NCBI RefSeq assembly: GCF_021172045.1 | Contig: NZ_CP087164.1 | Location: 3,844,001 to 3,908,000, forward strand | Direction: 5' to 3' | DNA: 64,000 nt | From: Capillimicrobium parvum | GTDB taxonomy: Bacteria > Actinomycetota > Thermoleophilia > Solirubrobacterales > Solirubrobacteraceae | In this document: positions 48,162 through 50,209 of the stretch, one piece after another | Position numbering within the stretch: position 1 is the first letter of the stretch | Layout of the letters: each line of letters opens with the position of its first letter | The notes under the pieces: generated by a model | What the model saw: the letters and a program-made list of their open reading frames with translations, nothing else | What the model was told of the DNA's origin: nothing | The model's database searches: none | Made by a program: the position numbers and the translations under genes

Positions 48162-48180
48162 CCGCGCCGCCCGGGCGCGG
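48162..48180. terminator. terminator hairpin after the HdeD-like gene
   Basis: CCGCGCC (48162-48168) pairs with GGCGCGG (48174-48180) around a 5-base loop, directly after the TGA ending at 48161. Confidence 0.55.
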
Positions 48181-48188
48181 CGCGCGTC

Positions 48189-48288
48189 GTCAGCCGGCGA
48201 CGAGGGCCGCGACGATCTCGTCGACCGCCGCCCGCGCCGTCAGCGCGCGACGAGGGCCGCGACGATCTCGTCGACCGCCGCCCGCGCC
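48189..48288. repeat. 50-bp tandem duplication at the 3' end of the UGSC gene
   Basis: Two copies (48189-48238 and 48239-48288) of a unit starting GTCAGC and ending CCGCCCGCGCC, with two mismatches near the left end. The right copy encodes the last residues (DEIVAALVAR) and stop of the UGSC protein. The left copy is an untranslated duplicate after the stop. Confidence 0.9.
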
Positions 48289-48758
48289 GCGGCGCGCAGC
48301 TCATCGTCGGTGCGGTCCTGCACCGGGTGGGCGACGAACACGCGCCGGACCTCCGGCTGGCCCAGGCGCCCCGCCTGGACGTCCGCGGCCTGCACGAACG
48401 CCGACGAGGCGACGAGCACCGCCGGGGTCCCTGCCGTCTCGAAGCTGAGCACGTCGCGCAGACCGCACGACACACAGGAGCCTCAGTCGGCGAGCGCCTC
48501 GATGACCGCGTCGCAGCGCTCGGCGATCTCGCGGCGCACGTCGACCGGCGCGGGCTTCGTGAAGGTCGGCTTCGCGGTGCGCTGCACCGCGGCGCCCCGC
48601 GCCCGCAGGAGCGCCTCGAGCTCGTCGAGGAACACGTCGCCGCGCGGCTTGCGGATGTCGAGCAGGGCGATGCGCGCCGGCAGCTGCGGCGGGCGCGGCG
48701 CGAGCGGACGGCCCTCGGGCGCGCGCTCGCTCGTAGGGTCGAGGATCGTCAGCGCCAC
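48240..48758 (-). CDS. UGSC-family selenoprotein with in-frame UGA (Sec92)
   Basis: 172 residues when TGA 48483-48485 is read as selenocysteine. Residues 1-91 run from MALTILDPTSERAPEG through ALLDIRKPRGDVFLDEL to CDAVIEALAD. The motif is then U-G-S-C (Sec92 to Cys95), then VSCGLRDVLSFETAGTPAVL to DEIVAALVAR. Both halves match the UGSC family, and the frame continues exactly across the UGA. The hairpin at 48453-48471 fits a bacterial SECIS. GTG 48758 overlaps the end of the upstream thioredoxin-domain gene by 10 bp, so they are co-translated. Probable thiol/selenol redox function, exact reaction unknown. Without recoding the gene would be called as two fragments. Confidence 0.85.
48453..48471 (-). 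promoter_or_regulatory. putative bacterial SECIS hairpin
   Basis: On the minus strand GUCGUGC-GGUCU-GCGCGAC forms a 7-bp stem (one G-U pair) with the loop GGUCU. The loop begins 18 bases after the UGA. As I recall it, the E. coli fdhF SECIS has the same GGUCU in its apical loop at the same distance. The hairpin lies within the coding sequence, as bacterial SECIS elements do. Confidence 0.75.
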
Positions 48759-50209
48759 GGCGACACCGCCTCGGTCACGGGCACGCTGCCGGCCTCGCCG
48801 CCGACCCAGGAGCCGTAGACCATGGAGAACAGCCCCGCGTCGCCGCCCGCGTGGGCGACCACGATGCGATCCGGAGCCGCGAACTTCGCCACCGCCTGGT
48901 CCGGGTCGTCGACCCACGCGGGGTCGAGGCCCTCCGCGATCCCGCCCGCACCGCGCACGAGCGAGCGGGCCGGGGCCATCGTCCGCGCGAAGAGCTCCTC
49001 CTGCAGGCGCTCGCGCGACCAGCCCGCCCCGGCGAACACGCGGCCGTGCTCCGGGCCGACGACGAGCAGCGCATCCCAGGCCAGCCGCTGCCGGACGTGC
49101 GCGACCGCCTCGAGGCCGCTCGCCAGCGAACGGGCGAGCGCGTCGGGCTCGCGCGCGAGCTGGTCGACGACGATCCGCGGCGCTTCGGTCGCCATGACGG
49201 TCACCCCGGTCTCCTCGGCGTCGAGCCCGCGGGCGACGTGCAGCGGGGAGAACGGCGAGTCCCAGGTGCGCTCGGCGAAGCAGCTCGCGAGCTTGCCGGG
49301 CTGGCCGTGGGCGGCGCGGTCCTCCTCGCGCGGGCGCCCGCCGCCGACGTTGCGCACCACGAGGCCCAGCGCGCGGCCGATCGTGAGGTTCGCCCGGTTG
49401 CCCTGGCCGAGGCAGTTGCCCTCGGCGTTCATCCCGATCTCGGCGGCCAGCGGCCCGCTCACCACGATGGTCGGCCCCGCGGGATGCGTGGTCGCCACCA
49501 CGCCGTGCAGCGCGAACTCGGGCCGGCACGCAGCGTGGACGGCCGCAAGGACGACCGGGAACGCCTCCGGCGGGCAGCCCGCCATCACCGCGTTGATCGC
49601 CACCTTCTCGACCGTCGCCTCGCCGTCGTAGGGCGGCACGACGCCCACGACGTCCTGCGCGTCGCGCGACGTGGCGTCGAGCATCTCGACGACCCGCTCG
49701 GCGGTCGGCGGGATCACCGGCAGGCCGTCGGTGACGCCGCGTTCGAAGAGCGCCTCGAACGGGTCCTCGAGCTCGCCGACCGTGAGCTCGCGCGCCCGCA
49801 GCCGGCCCGCCCGGCGTGCGGCGCGCGCGGCCAGCCGCGCCGCGACCTCGGGCTCGCGCGTGCGCGACGCGCAGCCGGGCCGCATCTCCGGGAGGCCGTC
49901 GAGCGCGATGTGGACGCCGGCCCGCTCGGCGATCTGCGCGTAGCGCGCGCGGTGCAGCCCCTCGACGCGGGCGGTCTCGGCCTCGCCGTCGAGCAGCACG
50001 AGGGCCGGCACCGCCTCGAGGTCCAGCCGCGCGCTCAGCGCGAGCTCGTCGTCGAGCTCCGGCACGGCCCGCAACCCCAGCCGCGCCGCCTGCGCGGCGG
50101 TGTCGTCCGCCTCGGACTGCGACAGCACCCGCACCCCGGCGGCGTCGAGCGCCGGAAGCACCTGGTCGCAGACCGGGCAGTCGTGCTTGACGAGCGCGAC
50201 GAGCTCCAT
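48749..50209 (-). CDS. thioredoxin-domain fusion protein, partner of the UGSC selenoprotein
   Basis: 486 residues. The N-terminal 80 residues form a thioredoxin/glutaredoxin-like domain with the redox pair Cys11/Cys14 (LVKHDCPVCDQVLPAL). Then comes a large domain from about 130: FERGVTDGLPVIPPTAERV, VVPPYDGEATVEKVAINAVM, THPAGPTIVVSGPLA and GNCLGQGNRANLTIGRAL. I do not recognise a named catalytic family for this part, which has several conserved Cys. ATG 50209 is selected because the thioredoxin fold begins there. It overlaps the selenoprotein start by 10 bp; the two probably act together. Confidence 0.72.
   Translation of the reverse strand: MELVALVKHDCPVCDQVLPALDAAGVRVLSQSEADDTAAQAARLGLRAVPELDDELALSARLDLEAVPALVLLDGEAETARVEGLHRARYAQIAERAGVHIALDGLPEMRPGCASRTREPEVAARLAARAARRAGRLRARELTVGELEDPFEALFERGVTDGLPVIPPTAERVVEMLDATSRDAQDVVGVVPPYDGEATVEKVAINAVMAGCPPEAFPVVLAAVHAACRPEFALHGVVATTHPAGPTIVVSGPLAAEIGMNAEGNCLGQGNRANLTIGRALGLVVRNVGGGRPREEDRAAHGQPGKLASCFAERTWDSPFSPLHVARGLDAEETGVTVMATEAPRIVVDQLAREPDALARSLASGLEAVAHVRQRLAWDALLVVGPEHGRVFAGAGWSRERLQEELFARTMAPARSLVRGAGGIAEGLDPAWVDDPDQAVAKFAAPDRIVVAHAGGDAGLFSMVYGSWVGGEAGSVPVTEAVSPWR

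Follow-up and report, generated by a model that had tools for sequence, protein, structure and literature searches.

The window analysed here, a stretch of 64 kb that corresponds to positions 3844001-3908000 of a genome of 5.95 Mb on one contig, carries on its minus strand a gene of the UGSC family whose reading frame contains an in-frame UGA, and just upstream of it a second gene, here called the partner, which overlaps the start of the UGSC gene by 10 nt (Table 1). From a GTG at 48758 the UGSC frame runs through 91 codons to a TGA, continues as GSCVSCGLRD... and closes at 48242-48240, so that its translation reads VALTILDPTSE...EALAD-UGA-GSCVSCGLRD...LVAR-stop.

Table 1. Features of the UGSC locus (window coordinates) and selenocysteine-related genes elsewhere (genome coordinates, marked as such).
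Feature	Position	Strand	Details
UGSC-family gene, putative selenoprotein	48240..48758	minus	GTG start, 172 codons, predicted Sec at codon 92, stop TGA 48240-48242
UGA codon, predicted selenocysteine	48483..48485	minus	residue 92, motif U-G-S-C; aligns with UGA or Cys codons of homologues
Candidate bacterial SECIS hairpin	48453..48471	minus	stem GUCGUGC / GCGCGAC, loop GGUCU at 48460-48464
UGSC partner gene	48749..50209	minus	486 aa from internal ATG; frame open to 50269
Partner N-terminal domain, predicted thioredoxin fold	49916..50209	minus	motif CPVC; AF2 model residues 1-98
selA	genome 5464080-5465141
selB	genome, directly after selA
selC	genome about 5460437-5460530		tRNA-Sec, anticodon UCA
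selD	genome 5454016-5454942
FdhA frame with in-frame UGA	genome about 4906677-4908251 (region 4905500-4909500)		...SIENQARI-U-HSSTV...; putative second selenoprotein gene

Standard gene calling splits the UGSC frame at the UGA into the 91-residue and 77-residue pieces that an earlier note on this DNA had described, the second of them starting at 48473, and the coordinates and the U-G-S-C motif claimed there were likewise recovered. Nevertheless, the joined frame of 172 codons matches PF24696 with 155.8 bits (cut-off 25) and NF041046, "UGSC family (seleno)protein", with 146 bits (cut-off 125), and each half matches PF24696 separately and in the correct order (60.6 bits for the 5' half, 73.5 bits for the 3' half), with family sequence flanking codon 92 on both sides. 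GC content at the three codon positions barely changes across the UGA (0.81/0.53/0.98 on its 5' side, 0.83/0.53/0.95 on its 3' side), and in the motif, here ADUGSCVSC, the first column of [U/C]-G-S-C is invariantly Sec or Cys among 57 aligned sequences. Homologues carry one or the other of these residues at position 92 and are joined across it; the contrary case that the earlier note had allowed for, in which the two halves are never joined in close homologues, did not occur. The gene is almost certainly intact in spite of its internal stop, the UGA being read as selenocysteine. The 3' end of the gene is spanned by a 50-bp tandem duplication (48176-48275, 90% identical), which places a second copy of the gene's end and stop codon after it.

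UGSC is a published selenoprotein family (PMC2398784, PMC13188914, PMC5029168), and the window gene is thus a new sequence of a known family, to which it conforms in its full-length profile match, in its motif and in the position that holds Sec or Cys. In aquatic settings UGSC is one of the more abundant selenoprotein families, with 255 Sec and 21 Cys forms in the GOS data (PMC2398784); no functional study of it was found in the open-access literature searched. The window gene is nonetheless set apart: none of the genomes sampled from its genus (n=3) and family (n=7) contains a UGSC gene, which makes the locus patchy at both levels, and either gain through transfer or repeated loss may explain this pattern.

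The partner is an uncharacterised protein, which scores above the cut-off of neither a Pfam nor an NCBIfam model. Its AF2 model (486 residues, pLDDT 91.8) opens with a domain that superposes on ResA-like thiol oxidoreductases (residues 1-98, Z 10.5, rmsd 2.3, 98 aligned), and a Thioredoxin_2 match with an E-value of 0.0018 falls below Pfam's cut-off. For the core of the protein, a sequence search of solved structures (PDB) returned no relative and a structure search no convincing match, the thioredoxin domain alone being found; matches of the partner to a Toblerone fold and to fumarase were dropped as weak, with TM-scores below 0.25. The association with UGSC is nevertheless close to constant. 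UGSC matches occur in 29 of 396 sampled genomes of the phylum, 27 of which also encode a partner homologue, and the two genes lie within 300 bp of each other for 38 of 43 UGSC genes in that sample; among Cys-type UGSC loci from named genomes the partner is present in 75 of 79, with the gene order running either way. Most members of the window's Sec clade have a CxxC at the thioredoxin site of the partner, a feature rarely seen outside this clade. Fusions of UGSC with a domain termed "Unknown_1" were mentioned in the 2008 GOS paper (PMC2398784).

The AF2 model of UGSC itself (pLDDT 95.0) is a five-strand alpha/beta domain in which residue 92 lies between a strand (84-90) and a helix (93-108). 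Its structure matches belong to flavodoxin-like, receiver, Rossmann and lumazine-synthase-like folds, with no thioredoxin-fold entry among the best 50, which falls short of proving that such a fold is absent; the fold is predicted to be flavodoxin-like. A sequence search of solved structures gave no relative of UGSC. Among viral structure models, nothing beyond generic alpha/beta matches came up.

Profile comparison by hhalign, using the UGA-carrying GrdB and PrdB-like genes of the same phylum, points to a relationship with the Sec domains of selenoprotein B (PF07355). The UGSC profile scores 39.1 against GrdB and 40.0 against PrdB-like domains, with Sec placed on Sec, while none of 32 unrelated neighbour profiles exceeds 25.5 and no permuted profile exceeds 22.5; masking the Sec column affects the scores little, and the link is a moderate one by its E-values (1e-4 and 3e-5) and probabilities (57-72%). 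About 90-100 residues around Sec align, and the likeness extends to the UxxC of PrdB-like forms, to E..GIP and to a conserved HP or P downstream. Common descent of the UGSC and GrdB/PrdB Sec domains is thus likely, though not proven. The resemblance has clear bounds: UGSC lacks the rest of GrdB, its partner is neither GrdE nor GrdC, and at E<=0.001 PF07355 hits nothing in the genome that holds the window. The partner was also considered as a relative of GrdE, GrdC or GrdB and rejected, as it resembles none of the three and scores at background level against GrdE and GrdC; the enzyme analogy is consequently limited to one domain, and UGSC is not classed as a glycine or proline reductase. Neither the partner association nor the link to GrdB/PrdB appears in the open-access literature searched; reports elsewhere are possible.

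These comparisons bear on the proposal, made for the family in 2008, that UGSC is a stand-alone thioredoxin-like oxidoreductase; the paper of that year gives its fold as likely thioredoxin-like (PMC2398784). The UxxC motif agrees with such a function; however, the modelled five-strand domain finds its best matches among flavodoxin-like, receiver and Rossmann folds, the profile resembles GrdB/PrdB Sec domains, and UGSC is nearly always paired with its partner, all of which leaves this proposal unlikely.

Turning to the UGA itself, the sequence that follows it reads GGCUCCUGUGU-GUCGUGC-GGUCU-GCGCGAC, a hairpin whose stem starts 11 nt and whose loop starts 18 nt after the UGA. The earlier note had placed the stem 18 bases after the UGA, a distance that holds for the loop and not for the stem; its comparison with the E. 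coli fdhF element proved accurate, fdhF having GGUCU likewise exactly 18 nt past its UGA. The two elements differ in that the stem in the window has other bases and runs for 7 bp uninterrupted directly below the loop. Within the 64-kb window no other UGA is followed by such a hairpin, and Rfam gave no match anywhere in it at the gathering threshold. When codons were shuffled synonymously, with the protein and local codon usage held fixed, a 7-bp stem appeared at the site in 7.4% of shuffles and a stem together with a GGUCU loop in 0.25%; folded alone, the sequence is mildly stable for its composition and not exceptional (z -1.39). Since a single sequence is so weakly discriminating, in both its fold and the frequency of chance stems, the real test of a SECIS element is conservation. 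All 7 stem pairs are present in 19 of 25 UGA-type UGSC genes and at least 5 in all 25, as against all 7 in none of 84 Cys-type genes (Fisher 2e-16). Stem pairs vary in a compensatory manner among the UGA-type genes (C-G to G-C, G-C to A-U or G-U), two of them with changes on both sides, and in many of these relatives AGUGU, AGUUU or AGUCU takes the place of the GGUCU loop. The SECIS structure suspected earlier is therefore a conserved property of UGA-type genes that Cys-type genes lack.

The earlier note had also named the absence of any Sec-incorporation genes as grounds for giving up its reading; selA, selB, selC and selD are all four present in the genome. A search for further selenoproteins, which covered the molybdopterin-oxidoreductase and AhpC families, revealed an FdhA frame with an in-frame UGA followed by a hairpin (stem GGUCCCC/GGGGACC) whose GGUCU loop, again 18 nt downstream of the UGA, is identical in sequence and spacing to that of the UGSC gene; two genes or more thus appear to depend on the Sec machinery through a single SECIS design. 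A partial copy of selA (233 bp, 97.9% identical) is found on the minus strand at genome positions 721642-721874, with a tRNA-Ser(CGA) gene some 140 bp away.

The distribution of the UGA among relatives adds to this picture. Most full-length UGSC matches in the phylum sample contain exactly one in-frame TGA, distant relatives share this UGA, and the tree places the window gene in an all-Sec clade of 11 rows with support of 98/93. SelB is encoded in 22 of 23 genomes with a UGA-type UGSC gene as against 227 of 396 overall (Fisher 4e-5, relatedness not corrected for), the one genome in which it went undetected being a fragmented assembly, and it is absent from two genomes that have only the Cys form. 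The proportions of Sec and Cys forms in the sample are biased, because the contig scan for relatives used a pattern with a Cys codon and returned mostly Cys forms.

Taken together, the family match, the complete set of sel genes, the UGA-specific hairpin and the second selenoprotein gene bear out the suggestion of a likely selenoprotein: on sequence grounds selenocysteine insertion at UGA 92 is strongly supported and almost certain, and it is highly probable that the gene encodes a working UGSC selenoprotein. That the UGA is instead a true nonsense change or a sequencing error, leaving fragments only, would fit the two pieces given by standard gene calling, but is extremely improbable given the same UGA in distant relatives, the intact codon-position GC beyond it, a hairpin kept with compensatory changes and the Sec machinery encoded in the genome. 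Termination at the UGA followed by a restart at the GTG 9 nt past it (48473) could in principle yield a 77-residue product; this, too, is scarcely credible, as Cys-type homologues are single and uninterrupted and the restart would split a confidently predicted single domain (pLDDT 95) close to where the helix after strand 3 begins.

If the UGA is read as selenocysteine, the hairpin just downstream would recruit SelB with Sec-tRNA, and the resulting protein would be a small domain of flavodoxin-like fold, in which Sec92 sits where a helix begins and forms a UxxC pair with Cys95. In an enzyme made of this domain and the protein of the overlapping partner gene, it would probably act as the redox subunit, and the partner's core may bind or activate a small substrate that Sec92 would attack or reduce, as in the Sec domain of glycine and proline reductase B proteins; in the window's clade, the CPVC thioredoxin domain of the partner would then re-reduce the Sec92-Cys95 selenenylsulfide. 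Such a recycling route would not be general, since a CxxC thioredoxin domain occurs in only part of the family's partners. We propose as a tentative model this complex, in which the partner core would hold a small substrate for Sec92 and Cys95 to act on and the CPVC domain would serve as the clade's reductant. With comparable reserve, the pair may represent a selenoenzyme of two subunits that has so far escaped recognition: its Cys versions would lie in catabolic gene clusters, its selenoprotein subunit would share its descent with the Sec domain of GrdB/PrdB proteins, and in the window's clade the partner thioredoxin would recycle that subunit.

These results do not only concern a gene that standard annotation would split in two but also define, through a near-constant unannotated partner and a profile link to GrdB/PrdB, a concrete two-gene system for expression and assay. 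The recurrent neighbours of Cys-type loci, namely ABC transporters, a zinc alcohol dehydrogenase, IclR, an amidohydrolase and a luciferase-like monooxygenase, suggest a catabolic setting and name no substrate. As to selenoprotein B in the phylum at large, UGA-containing grdB genes were seen in other actinomycete genomes (L193-L207, L234-L242), one of them from the window's own family, and several have grdE/grdC-like neighbours in apparent glycine-reductase operons; the phylum also has many short PrdB-like proteins (L214-L233) whose genes contain a UGA, in most cases as part of a U-P-x-C motif.
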